Below, piece by piece: positions 1 to 51,059 of a stretch of 64,000 nucleotides of DNA. Numbering within the stretch: the first letter of the stretch is position 1; each line of letters opens with the position of its first letter. The notes under the pieces are model-generated. The model searched no databases, was not told the origin of the DNA, and was given only the letters and a program-made list of their open reading frames with translations. Made by a program: the position numbers and the translations under genes. This DNA comes from a bacterium (GTDB taxonomy: Bacteria; Bdellovibrionota_C; UBA2361; SZUA-149; JAQTWB01), in the NCBI GenBank assembly GCA_028689495.1, contig JAQTWB010000002.1, positions 1-64,000 on the forward strand. Direction: 5' to 3'.

Positions 1-64
1 GGAGTTTGGCAAGCGTAGCTTGCTCATAGCCTAAAATTTCTCAAATTTTAGGCAAAGATAACCA

Positions 65-144
65 ATACCATTTCAGCTCTGGAAAAAGAGTGAAAAATCT
101 TTGATTTTTTCAGCTAAAAATTAAGACCATTTTTGAAACGGTAT
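65..144. repeat. 80-bp element bounded by ATACCrTTTCA inverted ends
   Basis: The left end ATACCATTTCA (65-75) pairs with the right end TGAAACGGTAT (134-144) with one mismatch. Between them is an AT-rich hairpin of the form GAAAAATC/GATTTTTTC. The right end carries the GACCATTTTTGAAACGGTATA box, which recurs near 12590, 14092 and, inverted, 24227. It looks like a small non-coding repeat, possibly a MITE-like remnant; no transposase is nearby. Confidence 0.5.
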
Positions 145-359
145 AGCTCAAAACTCAAGTCCAGGCAAAAAGTGAAACACGCTACAGGCCGACCGCACCA
201 AAGTTGTTTCGATCATCAGAATCAACCGTATCGTTCAAATTATTGTTGTTACCGTAGAGCGCGGGCCTTGCGTCCGCCCGGCTGTGATGAGGTTGTCGCT
301 GATGCACAAATTGTTTGACAACGGTCGTTGTGAGATCGATCGGCAATAATAATGCGTAT

Positions 360-5996: not shown

Positions 5997-6329
5997 CGCC
6001 TGCCTAGAAACCCAAAACCTGTCATTAAGTGTCGCGAAACATCCCAACCAAAGGCATACGGAGTCCCCCTACTGCCACTGCCCAGTGAGTCCTTCGACCA
6101 AACCACAAATTATCTTGAGTCCTGAATACATCTCTTTATTCAGCTAGCTGCATGCATTAGTAACCATTTGATTTAATTGGATTAAAGGCCCAGTATATAC
6201 TGCTCACACTTTAATTTTTCCGGTCCAGAACACCTCAATCCCGAGCAGTATATTTGGAGCTGCGGAGCAGCGACCAGATAACCATTATTCCCCTCCCGCT
6301 AACGTTAGTGCCGATCAGAATCGGGAGGG
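5997..6329. other. Intergenic region between kinase and MFS genes
   Basis: It contains one copy of the ATACTGCTC/GAGCAGTAT repeat (6195-6310) and nothing else I can support. The upstream control region of the signalling operon should lie near 6000-6180; I see no strong promoter match there. Confidence 0.6.
6195..6310 (-). repeat. ATACTGCTC/GAGCAGTAT repeat, copy 1
   Basis: ATACTGCTC and GAGCAGTAT bracket about 35 bp, followed by a GCTGC/GCAGC hairpin and CCAGATAAC. The same order, inverted, is found at 24370-24459, and a shortened version at 13940-14003. Here an extra CATTATTCCCCTCCCGCT sits between GATAAC and AACGTTAGT, flanked by AAC on both sides; copy 2 reads straight through GATAACGTTAGT. 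Confidence 0.75.
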
Positions 6330-13756: not shown

Positions 13757-13859
13757 CCACAAAAAACAACATCAATCTGGAATGTCTACCCCGGAAAATT
13801 TAACGCCATTTACCACCATTGCGCACCGAGATTTTGATGACGTTTACAATAACATGTAG

Positions 13860-13900: not shown

Positions 13901-13938
13901 ACGGGAGTGTTGCGAAATTAGCATTCTGCGGCACTCCC
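13901..13938. repeat. Shortened copy of the nested-hairpin element
   Basis: The segment GGGAGTGTTGCGAAATTAGC is nearly identical to the start of the large element at 43769, but the inner hairpins are deleted and the outer stem closes directly with CACTCCC. Confidence 0.65.
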
Positions 13939-24369: not shown

Positions 24370-24459
24370 CTAACGTTATCTGGTCGCTGCTTGCGCAGCT
24401 CCAATATACTGCTCGAGATTGAGGTGTTATGGATCGGAAAACTAAAGTGCGAGCAGTAT
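24370..24459 (+). repeat. ATACTGCTC/GAGCAGTAT repeat, copy 2
   Basis: Full copy: TAACGTTATCTGGTCGCTGC, then a GCTGC/GCAGC hairpin, ATACTGCTCG, 34 bp and CGAGCAGTAT. The last bases of the repeat supply the ATG used as the start of cutA (AGTATG). Inverted relative to copy 1. Confidence 0.8.
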
Positions 24460-43749: not shown

Positions 43750-44160
43750 TTTAATGAATATTCCTAAACGGGGAGTATTGCGAAATTAGCATTTCGCCAG
43801 GATTGACTTCCGTCAATCCACTTTTTCGTATCGGAGATACGAAAAAGTCTCCCCTCCATTAGTTTTTCTTTTGTAGGGCCAAAATGGCCCTACATTTCCT
43901 GCGCTTAATATTCTTTTTAGCGCGCAGGCATCCAGCCTGCGCTGTCTGCACTTAGGGTGTGTTTTTCAACAAACCCTAAAGTTACTTACCTTCCCAACTC
44001 ATAGCATGACATTATAGAAGCAAGCGACAACCTTCCAGCCAAAGAAAGTTTTTCTGGTGCCAGGTCACGAAATGTATAATCATTGGCACCAATCGTCGAT
44101 AACTCCCGATCGGGGGTTGCTAAATCTTTTTCATCAGCAAACATCATTACGGTTATTACC
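43750..44160. other. Intergenic region dominated by the nested-hairpin element
   Basis: It separates the divergent addB-like and TRL-like genes. The first 230 bp are the composite hairpin element; the rest (43981-44160) shows no clear promoter, RNA gene or frame with a ribosome binding site. Confidence 0.7.
43769..43980 (+). repeat. Nested-hairpin composite repeat, copy A
   Basis: About 210 bp. An outer stem (GGGGAG/CTCCCC) encloses three hairpins: CGAAAT/ATTTCG, GGATTGAC/GTCAATCC and CTTTTTCGTATC/GATACGAAAAAG. Then follow TGTAGGGCC/GGCCCTACA, GCGCAGGC/GCCTGCGC and TTAGGGT/ACCCTAA stems. A second copy lies inverted at 50470-50679, about 80 percent alike by eye, and a shortened one at 13901-13938. 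No reading frame; no transposase. Confidence 0.85.
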
Positions 44161-44469
44161 ATGAAAAAATCACTTCTTATTGCCCCCATCCTCCTGCTCT
44201 CCGCCTGCGCAACTCCATTACCTGGAGTCGGACCTGGCGCAATCTTTACAGAGACAACTGAAGCGGTATCGGCAAATAACAATATCCCTTCCACCCGACG
44301 TGGAGAAGCGTGCGCAACAAACATTCTCGGTATCGTATCGACTGGAGACAGCACAGTAGACACCGCCAAGCGACAAGGGGGAATTACACGCGTTTCTTCA
44401 ATCGACAGAAGTTTCTATTCTATCCTCGGTGTATACGCCAAGGCCTGCACTATCATCTCTGGCAACTAG
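44161..44469 (+). CDS. TRL-like lipoprotein, first copy
   Basis: A 102-residue lipoprotein: lipobox LSAC at about residues 13-16, then the TRL-like family pattern GEACATNILGIVSTGDSTVDTAK, GGITRVSSIDRSFYSI and a closing CTIISG. The family is known from many proteobacteria and spirochaetes, without a biochemical function. I start at the ATG at 44161, which gives the compact signal MKKSLLIAPILLLSAC; the ribosome binding site is weak. The second copy follows after 15 bp. Confidence 0.82.
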   Translation: MKKSLLIAPILLLSACATPLPGVGPGAIFTETTEAVSANNNIPSTRRGEACATNILGIVSTGDSTVDTAKRQGGITRVSSIDRSFYSILGVYAKACTIISGN

Positions 44470-44484
44470 CTCCAGGTGCACAAC

Positions 44485-44805
44485 ATGAATAAAATAGTTA
44501 TCTTTTCGGGCCTCGCTGCATTCTTCTTGCTCACCGGTTGCGCTTCTGGACTGCCTGAATCAGGTCCAGCGATCGTGGAGCTCGTCAAAGAAGGCATGCC
44601 AAGCCCCGATGGTCCAACAAATCGTCAGGGAGAAGCCTGTAACATGAGCGTTCTCGGACTCGTTGCTGTTGGTGATGCCAGTGTTGATGCCGCCAAAAGA
44701 AATGCTGGTATAACCAATGTCACATCCCTGGAACGTGATATTTTTGGCATTAACTTCTACTTCATCAAGTTTGCCAAGAGCTGCACCATTGTCAGGGGAA
44801 CCTGA
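44485..44805 (+). CDS. TRL-like lipoprotein, second copy
   Basis: A 106-residue paralogue of the gene just before it. Lipobox LTGC at about 16-19, then GEACNMSVLGLVAVGDASVDAAK, AGITNVTSLERDIFGI and CTIVRG in the same order. The two mature proteins keep the two Cys and the GDxSVDxAK core but differ elsewhere, so the duplication is old. AGGTG is eight bases before the ATG at 44485. A 12-bp stem hairpin follows. Confidence 0.82.
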   Translation: MNKIVIFSGLAAFFLLTGCASGLPESGPAIVELVKEGMPSPDGPTNRQGEACNMSVLGLVAVGDASVDAAKRNAGITNVTSLERDIFGINFYFIKFAKSCTIVRGT

Positions 44806-44888
44806 GATATCTGTGCGAGGTTTAACCAGATAGGGTAGTCTCGGACAATAATACAGTACAAGCAAAGAAGTTAAGTCACTCCAAACAT

Positions 44889-44917
44889 AAGCGCACCCAT
44901 GAATTATGGGTGCGCTT
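44889..44917 (+). terminator. Terminator-like hairpin after the TRL pair
   Basis: AAGCGCACCCAT (44889-44900) and ATGGGTGCGCTT (44906-44917), perfect 12-bp stem with loop GAATT, followed by T and then non-T bases. Confidence 0.75.
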
Positions 44918-45087
44918 TACCCCTCCATTACGCCTGCACTTTCCCCTTTCATTTCCCCCTCCGATATGATTATCTTCCAGTCCTGCGGCCGCCATACATG
45001 CGGTCTCGTATGCACAATGGTCGACGATGACACAATGATAATTATAATCCAACGTGCCATCTTCGACTCAACCCTTGAGGAGATCTT

Positions 45088-45570
45088 ATGAAAAAGTTGT
45101 TAATTGCTTCTGCGGTTTTCATTCTTCCTGCCATCGCCAGCGCCCAGAATGTTGGTCGTTGCGGATGGGGCTCAAAACTGTTTGACGGACAGCGCGGCAT
45201 TGCTCCACAGGTTCTCGCCGTCACAACCAACGGCACAAGCGGAAACCAGACTTTCGGAATTTCTTCCGGAACATCTGGCTGTACTCAAGACGGTGTAGTG
45301 CGCACCAACTGGAGAACCGCAATGTTTGTCGGCTCCAACATGAACAAGCTAGCTCGTGACATGTCAGCCGGCCAGGGCGAAACAATGGAATCTCTCGCCA
45401 GCCTGCTTGAAATCAAGGACGCTGACAAAGCGACTTTCTTTTCTGTAAGCCGCGAAAACTTTGCTTCTATCTTCAGCAGCCCATCGGCAAGCTCTGAAGA
45501 AGTACTCGCAGCATTGCGCGTCACCATGGAAGCAAACAGCGACCTGGCAAAATATTCGGCGAACCTGTAA
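45088..45570 (+). CDS. DUF3015 family secreted protein
   Basis: A 160-residue protein with signal peptide (LLIASAVFILPAIASAQ). The mature start NVGRCGWGSKLFDGQRG, then QVLAVTTNGTSGNQTFGISSGTSGC and DMSAGQGETMESLASLL, is the pattern of DUF3015 proteins. Members are small periplasmic or outer-membrane proteins of unknown role, often next to DUF4105 genes, as here. GAGGAG precedes the ATG. A 12-bp stem hairpin (45591-45618) stands between it and the next gene. Confidence 0.85.
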   Translation: MKKLLIASAVFILPAIASAQNVGRCGWGSKLFDGQRGIAPQVLAVTTNGTSGNQTFGISSGTSGCTQDGVVRTNWRTAMFVGSNMNKLARDMSAGQGETMESLASLLEIKDADKATFFSVSRENFASIFSSPSASSEEVLAALRVTMEANSDLAKYSANL

Positions 45571-45590
45571 AGCAAATAGCACCGAATAAC

Positions 45591-45618
45591 TCAGGGGCAG
45601 GCAATTGCCTGCCCCTGA
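45591..45618 (+). terminator. Hairpin between DUF3015 and DUF4105 genes
   Basis: TCAGGGGCAGGC and GCCTGCCCCTGA, perfect 12-bp stem with AATT loop, without a T-run. It could attenuate read-through or stabilise the upstream mRNA. Confidence 0.6.
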
Positions 45619-45666
45619 ACATAGCGGCCAAAACCCCTCCTGGAACATTTCCCTGAATCAGTTGTC

Positions 45667-47571
45667 TTGAAATCATTCTACGTCATAATCTTCCTCTGCT
45701 TTTCCTCATTCTGCCCGGCCCCTCTGGCCGCCCAATCAGAATACATCACTCTTCTGATTGACAAGAGCAAAGCCCTGAATCTTGCCGACGAGCCTCAATG
45801 GCTGACACTTGGACATTATAAAAAGGAACTGGGAATTTTTGACTGGAAGAGCCTGGTCGATGATCCGGAATTTTTTCTCGCCAAAGCTGGCAAAACTGAC
45901 CCACAGGCGGAACTTGACGCCAGTATCAAGGCAATATTTTCTCCGCCATCAACCGACAAAACACATGCCAGTTGTCTGTTTCCAGCACGCGCTCACTGGT
46001 TGGCCAAAAAACTCGGCACCACAATTCCAACAATCCATGACAAAATCTGCCAGGACTTCCTCAGCTGGAAAGAGGCAATCAACGCTTCCCGACTCACACT
46101 GATTTTTCCAACTGCCTATTTGAACAATCCGGCTTCGATGTTTGGCCACACTTTGTTACGACTGGATCAAGAAGGGCAAACCGAATCAACCAGGCTGCTC
46201 GCCTACGGAGCCAATTTTGGCGCCGCAACTGACGATCTTAACGGCTTTATCTTTGCCGTCAAAGGTTTGTCTGGCGGCTACCGCGGTGCCTTTACCGTCA
46301 AACCCTATTACGATCTGGTAAATCTCTACAGCGATATGGAGAACCGCGATATCTGGGAATACGAACTGAATTTCACAAAAAGTGAAGTCGAAATGATTGT
46401 TCGCCATCTTTGGGAGATGCGTAACTTTTATTTTGACTATTATTTTTTTGACGAAAACTGCTCTTACCAACTACTGGGCCTGCTCGAAGCGGGACGCCCC
46501 GGTTTATCGCTGACCGACAAATTTACCTTCTGGGCAATTCCCAACGACACAGTCAGGGCGTTAATCAATGATTCCGGCACAGTTGAAAAAGTAACCTTCC
46601 GCCCGGCCCAGGCGACGACATTAAAGGGATTAACGAAGCTGACCGACGCAAATGGTCGCCAAATGGCCCGGGGAATCTACGAAAAAAAAGTCTCGGTGAA
46701 AGAACTTGAACATTCGACACTAAGCACACAACAGAAGGCTGAAATTTACGATATCGCCTACAGTTACCTAACTTACCAAAGAAATATCGGAAAAGAAGTG
46801 AGCAATGAACTGGCTTTTGACCTGCTGAAGGCACGCAGCCAGTTGCATGAGTCGATCACGCCTGAGGTATCTCCCAATGCCGGACGGCCGGAACTGGGTC
46901 ATTTATCTTCCCGTCTCGCTATTGGCGGAGGTAGCCAAAAAACAACAAAAGATGGCTGGCGCGATTTCGCCTCTTTTAAAATTCGCCCCGCCTTCCATGA
47001 TATTCTCTCGCCCGCCGAAGCCTTTGTGCACGGTGCCGGAATACGGTTTCTCGACACAGAAATACGGCACTACGAAAACTCCAGACCGGAGCTGGAAAAT
47101 CTGGCGTTGGTAGACATTACATCGCTTACCGCACGAGATATTTTTTTCAAACCTCTTTCCTGGCACCTGGCGACCGGCCTGAAAAGAACCTATGAGGACC
47201 TGAAACAACGTCCCCTGGTGTCGTATTTCTCGGGCAGCAGTGGTCTGAGTTACCAGCTTTACGACCGCCTGCTTATTTCCTCATTACTTCACGGCGAAAT
47301 CGCCTGGTCCAATAAACTCCCCGGATCAACGTCGTTTTATTCCGGTCCAGAATTTATCATCCTCGCCGACCTCGAACCGTTTGCCTTACTCGCTACTTCC
47401 CGAGCGCTGTACAACATCGACGAGCAACGCTGGAGCCTTGTTTCAAGCCTGACGCCACGCTTCCAGATTAATGTCAACAATGAACTGCGCCTTGATTTCA
47501 ACGTCCAGCAAACCAATCTCGGTGGCGAACGCACCCGGGAAATCCGACTTGAGTGGTGTTCCTTCTTTTAA
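45667..47571 (+). CDS. DUF4105 protein (Lnb-like N-terminal domain)
   Basis: A 634-residue secreted protein with signal peptide (VIIFLCFSSFCPAPLAAQ). The DUF4105 region (about 130-290) has the expected FPTAYLNNPASMFGHTLLR, LLAYGANFGA, GLSGGYRGAF, IWEYELNF and FFDENCSYQLLGLLEA, the last containing the Cys that is conserved in this cysteine-protease-like fold. The C-terminal 230 residues alternate in hydrophobic strands (RFQINVNNELRLDFNVQQ) and end in EWCSFF, so they may form a barrel. It starts with TTG; no ATG is available before the signal peptide. It follows DUF3015, a frequent pairing. Confidence 0.82.
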   Translation: MKSFYVIIFLCFSSFCPAPLAAQSEYITLLIDKSKALNLADEPQWLTLGHYKKELGIFDWKSLVDDPEFFLAKAGKTDPQAELDASIKAIFSPPSTDKTHASCLFPARAHWLAKKLGTTIPTIHDKICQDFLSWKEAINASRLTLIFPTAYLNNPASMFGHTLLRLDQEGQTESTRLLAYGANFGAATDDLNGFIFAVKGLSGGYRGAFTVKPYYDLVNLYSDMENRDIWEYELNFTKSEVEMIVRHLWEMRNFYFDYYFFDENCSYQLLGLLEAGRPGLSLTDKFTFWAIPNDTVRALINDSGTVEKVTFRPAQATTLKGLTKLTDANGRQMARGIYEKKVSVKELEHSTLSTQQKAEIYDIAYSYLTYQRNIGKEVSNELAFDLLKARSQLHESITPEVSPNAGRPELGHLSSRLAIGGGSQKTTKDGWRDFASFKIRPAFHDILSPAEAFVHGAGIRFLDTEIRHYENSRPELENLALVDITSLTARDIFFKPLSWHLATGLKRTYEDLKQRPLVSYFSGSSGLSYQLYDRLLISSLLHGEIAWSNKLPGSTSFYSGPEFIILADLEPFALLATSRALYNIDEQRWSLVSSLTPRFQINVNNELRLDFNVQQTNLGGERTREIRLEWCSFF

Positions 47572-47702
47572 CTGGCTATTCCCCTGGCGAATGAGATAGA
47601 AACGGATCAGACGACTGCAACCAATAAGCCACCTCCATTCACAGACCGCTGGTCTATAAAAAGTCTCCTTTTTTCAAAAAGCATCTATTTTTCAAAGAAA
47701 CC

Positions 47703-50444
47703 ATGAGCAAGCTGAAACTCCCTGAAAACGTACCATCAGAGAATCACACACTAATAAACGACCAACCTTGGCACTCGCTCCCTGCTGACTTAATACTTTC
47801 ACAGCAGGATGTTGAAAAAACACAGGGGCTGACCGAAGAAGATGCGCAAAAACGCATTCTTGTTTGGGGTGAAAATCGTCTGATTAGCAAACCGAGCAAA
47901 ACAACTTTCGAACTCTGGCTTTCACAATTCAACCAACCACTTGTCTACTTGCTGATCCTTGCCGGAACGATCACCCTCTTCCTCAATGAACTGATTGACT
48001 CAGCTGTCATCTTTGGCGTTGTCATGATGAATGCCGTTATCGGCTACATGCAGGAAGCAAATGCAATCAAAGCCATCGAATCCTTGGCGCGCATTCTGAA
48101 CATCAACGCCACAGTGCTGCGCAACAATCGCAAGCGTTCCCTGCCCGCCGCAGAACTTGTGCCGGGCGACATAGTTTTTCTGCTCTCCGGCGACAAGGTT
48201 CCAGCTGATCTGCGCCTGATTACAACAAAAGAACTACGTATCGACGAATCCACGCTGACCGGAGAATCTCTTCCGGTCGAGAAAAACAGTGCACCCCTAC
48301 CCGGCGACACCCCCCTCGCGGAAAGAACCAACATTGCTTACTCATCGACCCTCGTCACCTATGGCGCGGCTGTCGGAGTTGTCGTCGCCACGGGTGCACG
48401 AAGCGAAATTGGCCGCATCCAGACAATGCTCGCCGGAGCCAATATTCTTGACACGCCGCTGACCCGAAAAATCGATCGCTTCAGTAATCAACTACTCTGG
48501 GCAATCATTGCTGTAGCGGCTGGCACTTTTGCTTTTGGCTGGTGGAAAGGAGAATCACTGCTCAACATGTTCATGGCCTCTGTCGCCCTTGCTGTCGGAG
48601 CAATACCGGAAGGACTGCCCGCAGCAATGAGCATCACACTGGCAATTGGCGTTTCACGCATGGCCAAACGCCACGCAATTATCCGCAAACTTCCTGCAGT
48701 TGAAACTCTCGGCAGCACAACTGTCATCTGTTCCGATAAAACCGGAACGCTGACCCAGAACCAGATGACCGTACAGTCAATATTCTGTGGAGACAAAACC
48801 TGGACTCTTAGTGGCGAGGGCTATCGGCCCGTTGGAGAATTCGCCTCTGAAGGGCAGCGCATCAATCCCCTTGATGCACCGTTACTGACAGAATGCCTTA
48901 AAGCAGGGCTTCTTTGTAATGACGCTCGGCTGCTTGAGGATAACGGACGCTGGCGCATCGAAGGTGATCCGACCGAAGCCGCTCTGCTGGTTTCTGCTCA
49001 AAAAGCCGGACTTTACTATGACGAAATTGCCGGCTCGTTTCCACGTCTCGATGCCTTGCCTTTTGAAAGTGAGAAACAATTCATGGCGACTCTGCACGGT
49101 GATAACGGTGATAATTCACCAACTGTCTACCTCAAAGGGTCTATCGAGGCCATCTTGAAACAATGCACTGAGTGCCTTGATGACAACCTGATAGTATCTC
49201 CTCTTGATAAAGAAGAGATACATCGTCAGGTCGATGTCCTGACATCGCGAGGTCTGCGCGTCCTTGCACTGGCAAGAACTACACTGCCTGCAGACTCAAG
49301 GTATCTTGAGCATGAACACATTAGTGACAACCTGACATTTATTGGGCTTCAGGCAATGAGCGATCCGGTGCGCCCCGAAGCAATTGATGCTGTTGCCGCC
49401 TGCCAATCAGCTGGCATTTGCGTCAAAATGATCACAGGCGATCACCCCGGAACAGCTCTGGCCATCGCCGCTCAACTAAATCTTTTCCCGGCTCAAAATG
49501 AACAGCAACGTGTAATAAGCGGTAGCGAACTGACTAAAACACCTCCGGAGAAGTATGCTGAGCTGGTTGAGAAATATAATGTTTTTGCCCGAATCAGCCC
49601 GGAGCAAAAACTTAACCTAATCCAATCACTACAAGGTCGTGGTCATATCGTGGCGATGACTGGAGATGGGGTTAACGATGCGCCGGCGCTGCGTCAGGCG
49701 AATATCGGCATTGCCATGGGAATTAACGGCACCGAAGTGGCAAAAGAAGCTTCGGCGATGCTGCTCACTGACGATAACTTTGCGACTATTGCCGCAGCCG
49801 TCGAGGAAGGACGTGGTGTGTTCGACAATCTGATTAAGTTCATCGCCTGGACACTGCCGACCAATATCGGTGAAGGCCTGATCATCTGTGTAGCTGTTTT
49901 TAGCGGCGCACTGCTGCCAATTACCCCACTGCAAATTCTCTGGATTAACATGAGCACAGCGGTATTCCTCGGCCTGATGCTGGCCTTTGAGCCGAAAGAA
50001 CCGGATCTGATGCTCCGTTCTCCCAGGCCCCCAGATCAGCCGATCTTGACTGGCGAAATCCTCAGGCGCATCGTCATTGCCGGCGTGTTGATGCTCATCG
50101 CCGCATTTTCCCTATTCTCGCGCGAGCTCGATCAGGGAGAATCAATTGAAGCGGCAAGAACTGTTGCCGTCAATGTCTTTGTCTTTTGCGAAATTTTTTA
50201 CCTGTTTAATTGTCGCTCACTGACCAAACCATTTGCCCGAATCGGATTGTTCTCAAACCTCTGGCTTGTCTCAGGTGTCACCCTGATGATCTTCCTGCAA
50301 TTGCTGATTACCTACTGGGGGCCAATGCAACAGGCTTTCGGCTGCACCGCAATTGGCCTCGACGAGTGGGTTCTGATTATTACTAGCGGCGCACTGCTTT
50401 TTCTGCTGATTGAACTGGAGAAGTGGGTCTTTCGGGGAAAATGA
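47703..50444 (+). CDS. P-type cation-transporting ATPase (P2 type)
   Basis: A 913-residue pump with N-terminal cation-ATPase domain, actuator motif TGESLPVEK, span-4 motif AIPEGLPAA, phosphorylation site DKTGTLTQNQ (Asp about 345), hinge TGDGVNDAPALRQA and C-terminal cation-ATPase domain. The PEGLP motif places it with Ca2+/Na+/H+-type pumps. In span 6 the site NMSTAVFLG keeps Asn749 and Thr752 but has Ala753 where SERCA has the Asp that binds calcium; this form is shared by a bacterial/archaeal subgroup of unsettled specificity. Single gene, ATG start with weak ribosome binding site, preceded by a 131-bp gap. Confidence 0.9.
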   Translation: MSKLKLPENVPSENHTLINDQPWHSLPADLILSQQDVEKTQGLTEEDAQKRILVWGENRLISKPSKTTFELWLSQFNQPLVYLLILAGTITLFLNELIDSAVIFGVVMMNAVIGYMQEANAIKAIESLARILNINATVLRNNRKRSLPAAELVPGDIVFLLSGDKVPADLRLITTKELRIDESTLTGESLPVEKNSAPLPGDTPLAERTNIAYSSTLVTYGAAVGVVVATGARSEIGRIQTMLAGANILDTPLTRKIDRFSNQLLWAIIAVAAGTFAFGWWKGESLLNMFMASVALAVGAIPEGLPAAMSITLAIGVSRMAKRHAIIRKLPAVETLGSTTVICSDKTGTLTQNQMTVQSIFCGDKTWTLSGEGYRPVGEFASEGQRINPLDAPLLTECLKAGLLCNDARLLEDNGRWRIEGDPTEAALLVSAQKAGLYYDEIAGSFPRLDALPFESEKQFMATLHGDNGDNSPTVYLKGSIEAILKQCTECLDDNLIVSPLDKEEIHRQVDVLTSRGLRVLALARTTLPADSRYLEHEHISDNLTFIGLQAMSDPVRPEAIDAVAACQSAGICVKMITGDHPGTALAIAAQLNLFPAQNEQQRVISGSELTKTPPEKYAELVEKYNVFARISPEQKLNLIQSLQGRGHIVAMTGDGVNDAPALRQANIGIAMGINGTEVAKEASAMLLTDDNFATIAAAVEEGRGVFDNLIKFIAWTLPTNIGEGLIICVAVFSGALLPITPLQILWINMSTAVFLGLMLAFEPKEPDLMLRSPRPPDQPILTGEILRRIVIAGVLMLIAAFSLFSRELDQGESIEAARTVAVNVFVFCEIFYLFNCRSLTKPFARIGLFSNLWLVSGVTLMIFLQLLITYWGPMQQAFGCTAIGLDEWVLIITSGALLFLLIELEKWVFRGK

Positions 50445-50469
50445 GGACGTGACCGCCGAACCATCTTAT

Positions 50470-50679
50470 GGGCGTGTTGAAAAACACGCCCATAATGCAG
50501 ACAGCGAAAGCCGGATGCCTGCGCGCGCTAAAAAAACACCAAGCGCAGCAGATGTAGGGCCTGCAAGGTCCTACAAAAGAAAAAATCATAGAGGGGAGAC
50601 TTTTTCGTGTCGAAGATGCGAAAAAGTGGATTGACGGTAGTCAATCCTGGCGAAATGTTAATTTCGCAACACTCCCCTA
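50470..50679 (-). repeat. Nested-hairpin composite repeat, copy B (inverted)
   Basis: The reverse complement matches copy A from GGGGAGTGTTGCGAAATT to the terminal stem. The last hairpin reads TTATGGGCGTGTT/AACACGCCCATAA here and TTAGGGTGTGTT/AACAAACCCTAA in copy A: the arms differ but both pair. The third and sixth hairpins carry mismatches. Confidence 0.85.
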
Positions 50680-50782
50680 ATCGGGAAGTTGCATGTAGGT
50701 TCGCCGGCAAAACCTGTTCCACCCTTAATCTACATTGTCACTGGGGGCTGGGGGATATGGACGGAAGCTAGGGTGAACAATT

Positions 50783-51059
50783 CCCCTCCTTCGGAGCTTG
50801 CTATAACCCACAAGTCTGCAGGAACGAAAATAGTGGCTTCAGTGGGGCAGCAGAGCTCCAGTATTGCCGTCTTCTGAGAGTGATTTTAAATACGCCCACT
50901 TTGCAAGAACTTTAACTCTGTTCGATCTCCAATCGCAACAAGGTAATCTGGTCGGGAGCTTGTGGGTAATAGCAAGTCTTCGGAGGGGTGGCAGGCGTAG
51001 CCTGACGGGGTGGTGAGAATGCGTAATTTTTGCAGCTAAGCTGGAGCTCCGCTGCCCCA
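50783..51059. repeat. Two interleaved inverted repeats
   Basis: Arm X (50783-50814, containing CTTGCTATAACCCACAAG) is inverted at 50959-50988 (CTTGTGGGTAATAGCAAG). Arm Y (50843-50861, TGGGGCAGCAGAGCTCCAG) is inverted at 51041-51059 with one mismatch. The order X-Y-X'-Y' is crossed, not nested. Confidence 0.75.

Follow-up and report, generated by a model that had tools for sequence, protein, structure and literature searches.

A MITE-like element family in a Bdellovibrionota_C genome with a last stem that reaches into host target DNA

Prokaryotic MITEs, of which Chunjie and QMITE2 are examples, have been reviewed (PMC10969869). The element described in this study resembles them in being short, non-coding, mostly intergenic and strongly folding, with terminal inverted repeats and direct repeats of the target. 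However, its terminal repeat is imperfect and only about 10 bp long, the right one forms part of a hairpin that becomes matched anew to the target, and no parent IS was found. Ends starting with GGG and 5-bp duplications in A/T-rich targets are known from Tn3. The element has them in common with the TIMEs, miniature elements derived from Tn3 (PMC4133298), although it lacks the 38-bp Tn3 terminal repeat and no Tn3 transposase was found in the genome. REP/REPIN sequences with RAYT are likewise palindromic, intergenic and present in many copies, and Y1 genes exist in this genome. Unlike them, the element has 5-bp target duplications, carries no terminal tag and does not lie beside the Y1 genes.

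Template switching between the arms of an inverted repeat has two outcomes, arm homogenisation and spacer inversion (PMC8604942), and it can create and maintain hairpins and imitate compensatory change (PMC8794818). With such quasipalindrome mutation (PMC7202029; PMC8604942; PMC8794818) the element shares arm homogenisation, loop inversion and small slips. In contrast to the known cases, one arm is supplied here by the insertion site, and the other target copy and the empty sites reveal the original state of that arm.

Copies, ends and target duplications

The window analysed is a stretch of 64,000 nucleotides of contig JAQTWB010000002.1. Both of the mutually inverted copies that had been predicted in it are present, with the exact limits given in Table 1. 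The outer stem was found together with the three hairpins that it encloses and the other stems, and folding is strong on both strands (fold energy z-score of −10.3 for the + strand and −10.7 for the − strand). The arms are 84% and 79% complementary. After a shift of one base, the two flanks of copy 1 have TAAA in common.

Table 1. Coordinates of the element copies and their parts in the window
Feature	Position	Strand	Remarks
Full copy 1, subfamily A	43771..43976	+	GGGAGTATTG...CAACAAACCC; covariance-model match E 1.4e-32
Copy 1, left flank AAACG	43766..43770	+	Left half of degraded target duplication
Copy 1, cloverleaf-like 5' domain	43771..43853	+	Outer stem GGGAG/CTCCC around three hairpins
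Copy 1, three hairpins inside 5' domain	43780-43797, 43800-43819, 43820-43848	+	
Copy 1, hairpin 4, GTAGGGCCAAAATGGCCCTAC	43873..43893	+	Loop AAAAT; inverted form ATTTT in five copies
Copy 1, hairpin 5, CTGCGC...GCGCAG	43899..43927	+	Loop length varies between copies
Copy 1, hairpin 6, CAGC...GCTG	43933..43944	+	Subfamily B form CGGC...GCCG
Copy 1, internal arm ACTTA	43950..43954	+	Pairs with right flank, 3 contiguous bases
Copy 1, right terminal hairpin GGGTGTGTT-TTTC-AACAAACCC	43955..43976	+	Contains right terminal inverted repeat
Copy 1, right flank TAAAG	43977..43981	+	Host target DNA, outer 3' arm of last stem
Full copy 2, subfamily B	50470..50676	-	GGGAGTGTTG...CAACACGCCC; covariance-model match E 7.5e-32
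Copy 2, left flank ATTAG	50677..50681	-	Target duplication partner, 4/5 same as ATAAG
Copy 2, internal arm ATTAT	50492..50496	-	
Copy 2, right flank ATAAG	50465..50469	-	4/5 complementary to internal arm ATTAT
36-bp solo palindrome GGGAGTGTTGCGAAAT-TAGC-ATTCTGCGGCACTCCC	13903..13938	+	Made from left end

The genome was searched with BLAST, end patterns and a covariance model built on the cloverleaf-like 5' domain. The further copies on which the original prediction depended are spread over the 3.4-Mb MAG, with 39 sequences matching the 5' domain strongly as well as degenerate and short forms. Full-length copies number 34, each 186-207 bp long (about 192 or 206 bp) and with pairwise identities of 80-99% in the alignment of the 34; copy number and identity far exceed chance. 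The copies fall into two subfamilies, with GGGTGTG...CACACCC in A and GGGCRTG...CACGCCC in B, and hybrids also occur. Most copies lie between ORFs, in either orientation relative to the neighbouring genes. No consistent ORF was found within the copies, in agreement with the predicted lack of coding capacity in these many, dispersed and short sequences. A search with the 5'-domain covariance model found no copy in 45 further genomes from the phylum, and none was found in plasmid and phage collections, in the genome of the closest protein relative, or, with the exact left-end pattern only, in viral contigs and named genome contigs. The copies make up a new family of non-autonomous, MITE-like elements, and none of the collections searched yielded a sequence match.

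The element ends are GGGAGTGTTG...CAACACRCCC and form imperfect 10-bp terminal inverted repeats, with one mismatch between the left end GGGAGTGTTG and the reverse complement of the right end, GGGTGTGTTG. Target-site duplications exist and are 5 bp long: 18/34 copies are flanked by exact 5-bp direct repeats, where permuted flanks gave 1.8 on average and at most 9 in 20,000 permutations. The targets are A/T-rich. Since two copies were inserted into other repeats, their empty sites could be read, which fixes the limits of the element. ATCCG stands on both sides of the C41 copy and is single in C153, C3, C38 and one C9 copy; AAAAT stands on both sides of the C106 copy and once in C57, C199 and window positions 50-145. 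In C17, two tandem copies are separated by exactly one duplication, TTAAT; a separate mechanism was not adopted for this arrangement, as the spacing fits unequal recombination. Terminal inverted repeats, 5-bp duplications, empty sites and dispersed copies with no consistent ORF show that, of the two possibilities raised in the original prediction, the mobile non-autonomous element is correct.

Shorter forms were also observed. The supposed shortened copy in the window, described as an outer stem plus first hairpin, is actually a 36-bp near-palindrome (Table 1), and similar solos occur at C73:3549, C119:342 and C17:4154. As their flanks are not direct repeats (GAAAT/ATTTG in C73, ATTTA/ATAAT in C119), these solos were rejected as the basic mobile unit and look like products of internal deletion or snap-back. 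Solos of 22 bp (GGGAGTGTTTTTCAACACACCC) are found at C30:41697-41718 and on C91; the one in C30 is flanked by AAAAT direct repeats and is consistent with an internal deletion between the GTGTT repeats of both ends. In C181:1-3000, a 5'-truncated copy lies between 14-bp direct repeats (ACAATGTCATAACG / ACAATGTCAGAACG) instead of a 5-bp duplication, and at C57:17271 a solo terminal hairpin is centred in a longer inverted repeat formed by the flanking sequences (AGCTGATTCGTA / TACGAATCAGCT).

The window contains other repeats as well. A second family, at about 50740-50900, adjoins copy 2, contains CAGACTTGTGGGTWATAGCAAGCTCC and GTGATTTTAAATACGCCC and has at least eight copies in the genome; it also flanks a gene for an IS4/IS50-like transposase of 467 aa (C150:1517-4813), and CTGCATGYTGGGAGTGATTTYAAATACGCCC, which forms its right part, is similar to the right end of the element studied here. 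Copies of a third dispersed repeat, CTGCTCRCACTTTAATTTTTCCGRTCCAGAACACCTCAATC...GAGCAGTATATTGG, which has a near-palindrome inside it, lie at 6211-6254 and 24403-24446, and the C41 copy of this repeat contains an insertion of the present element. REP-like palindromes of the type GTAGGGGCGCCTCGCGAGGCGCC, tagged with GTAG, occur at 13856, 35797, 60129, 31003 and 22625.

Coupling of the last stem to the insertion site

The last stem has the order internal arm, GGGTGTGTT-TTTC-AACACACCC, right flank. The 5' arm is internal, but the outer 3' arm consists of target DNA of the host, beyond the element. The original prediction was right that both arms of this stem differ between the two window copies; the outer bases, however, belong to the target and not to the element. 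In 27 of the 34 full copies, the two internal bases beside the hairpin can pair with the first two bases of the flank, against 6.6 expected and a maximum of 16 in 20,000 permutations. Ten truncated copies outside this test gave 8/10 matches, including GT, AC and GT. A plain bias towards A/T-rich targets was rejected as the cause by the permutation and by matches that contain G or C (GG in C37, GT in C38, C86 and C75, AC in C181, AG in C150). In subfamily A, the dinucleotide matches its own flank in 18/21 copies and that of the nearest body relative in only 3/21, and these relatives diverge by only a few per cent. The dinucleotide therefore tracks the insertion site and not descent, and is rewritten instead of being inherited with the body.

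Between target copies that differ from each other, the internal arm sides with the right one 12 times and with the left one once (nine copies versus one; shifted and degenerate copies were excluded from this count), so that the right flank must sometimes have been rewritten to fit the element. In copies that combine a perfect duplication with matched arms (C106, with its empty site, C37, C147 and C17), it was likely the internal arm that changed. The rewritten tract is mostly two bases only, but longer ones occur: exact reverse complementarity between flank and internal sequence extends over 12 bases in C188 and over 9 in C215. Matches can also be slipped, by −1 in C111 and by +1 in C83, and one-base slips restore pairing. 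Over the whole set of copies, outer homology and matching are associated no more than suggestively (Fisher p = 0.058). C102 and C172 are unmatched despite outer homology, and these insertions may be young.

We consider it probable that this is a MITE-like family moved in trans, in which changes on both arms arise by template-switch correction at the DNA level and not by selection on RNA. We infer a DDE-type transposase acting in trans and, from the footprints, template switching as the cause of the rewriting. The putative transposase would make 5-bp staggered cuts at A/T-rich sites. The stem of the hairpin that holds the right terminal repeat runs on into target DNA and, during or after insertion, a polymerase switching templates at this quasipalindrome would copy one arm onto the other. 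Usually the two internal bases would be rewritten to match the flank, sometimes the flank or a longer stretch, and the same process would invert hairpin loops elsewhere in the element.

It is doubtful that the insertion reaction itself, by snap-back gap repair or a pairing-guided transposase, writes two target bases into the element at a point 22 bp inward from the right end; if it did, the site at which each copy landed would be recorded within that copy. The broader idea of pairing-guided or target-copying transposition, modelled on the guide sequences at IS200/IS605 ends, holds that the internal arm pairs with the target and either selects the site or is rewritten by transposition or gap repair. 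This we regard as unlikely. It would suit the very strong coupling of the internal dinucleotide to the flank, as well as the rewritten tract of mostly two bases. Targets starting with AT are found in 4/8 of the subfamily B copies in which the ancestral internal AT is retained and in 2/25 elsewhere (p = 0.02), which hints at some pairing-guided target choice as a small contribution. However, pairing is dispensable for insertion, because perfect 5-bp duplications occur without it in C29 (CACTG), C131 (ACCAG), C25 (TAATC) and C172 (TAAAT); in C29, C131 and C25, the flanks do not have the outer A/T bases needed for re-pairing, and the arms are unmatched. Furthermore, the dinucleotides differ between close relatives and so are no inherited fixed guide, the right flank was sometimes changed to suit the internal arm, and loops distant from the target are inverted too.

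Loop inversions, RNA structure and candidate transposases

Exact reverse-complement loop states were observed in four hairpins: hairpin 2 (TTCC/GGAA), hairpin 3 (GGA/TCC, TTC/GAA and AGA/TCT), hairpin 4 (AAAAT/ATTTT) and the terminal hairpin 7 (TTTTTCAA/TTGAAAAA). All four combinations of the GGA/TCC states of hairpin 3 with the states of hairpin 4 were seen, and therefore the loop flips recurred or were shuffled.

The compensatory change in the last stem had been taken to point to selection for structure. This conclusion is not supported, as the covarying arm is target DNA and the internal arm follows the site. Because the 3' arm lies outside the element, changes in the last stem do not testify to a selected RNA. 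Despite the strong folding on both strands, a structured RNA or an array of regulatory hairpins under selection, with true compensatory changes, is very unlikely. Covariation was judged against shuffled and slid controls and exceeds both, and in the body double changes at 170/179 and 195/211 distinguish subfamilies A and B. The covariation is real, yet its clearest source is the stem reaching into host DNA, and the best covarying pairs include host flank outside the element. Half-changed pairs (G.T 14, A.C 20, p = 0.39), with no significant strand bias, show on neither strand the tolerance of G.U pairs that selection on an RNA would lead one to expect, and three A.C mismatches are fixed in hairpins 3 and 4 of subfamily B. 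The inverted loops and the orientation of copies either way to neighbouring genes also argue against such an RNA, and an Rfam scan of the window matched only a tRNA and not the element.

Mobilisation as a REP/BIME-type element by a RAYT (Y1) transposase, as the original prediction had suggested, is scarcely credible: the genome has seven Y1_Tnp genes, hairpin 4 starts with GTAG and the window has GTAG-tagged palindromes elsewhere, but exact 5-bp duplications and empty sites indicate a staggered-cut transposase, no copy or end adjoins any of the seven genes, and the element ends carry no GTAG or CGTC tag.

The two DDE_Tnp_1 genes in the genome appear from their sequences to be an IS1380-like fragment (C77) and an IS4/IS50-like gene (C150), and no element ends were found near them. 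No Tn3 or IS6-type transposase domain was found in the genome. RAYT, DDE_Tnp_1, Tn3 and IS6-type enzymes were each examined as the mover, and none fits. Among the PF01609, PF01526 and PF13610 families, no transposase with matching ends was found in this fragmented MAG of 216 contigs, and the parent IS may be missing from the assembly.

Covariation without an ancestral RNA helix

Covariation between the arms of a stem is usually taken as strong evidence for a functional RNA. In the present family, no ancestral RNA helix exists to be conserved, because one arm consists of host DNA from whatever site the element happened to enter. That the arms covary strongly all the same turns the family into an experiment of nature in many copies, and it indicates that clean 'compensatory' changes can result from template switching alone. 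Target duplications and empty sites show how each stem began, and the direction of correction can thus be followed. The coupling between internal arm and host flank is unusual and well documented. It provides a warning for the discovery of structured RNAs in repeats as well as a clean test system for quasipalindrome correction. In summary, the changes in the end hairpin of this element probably record DNA copying errors and not a working RNA.
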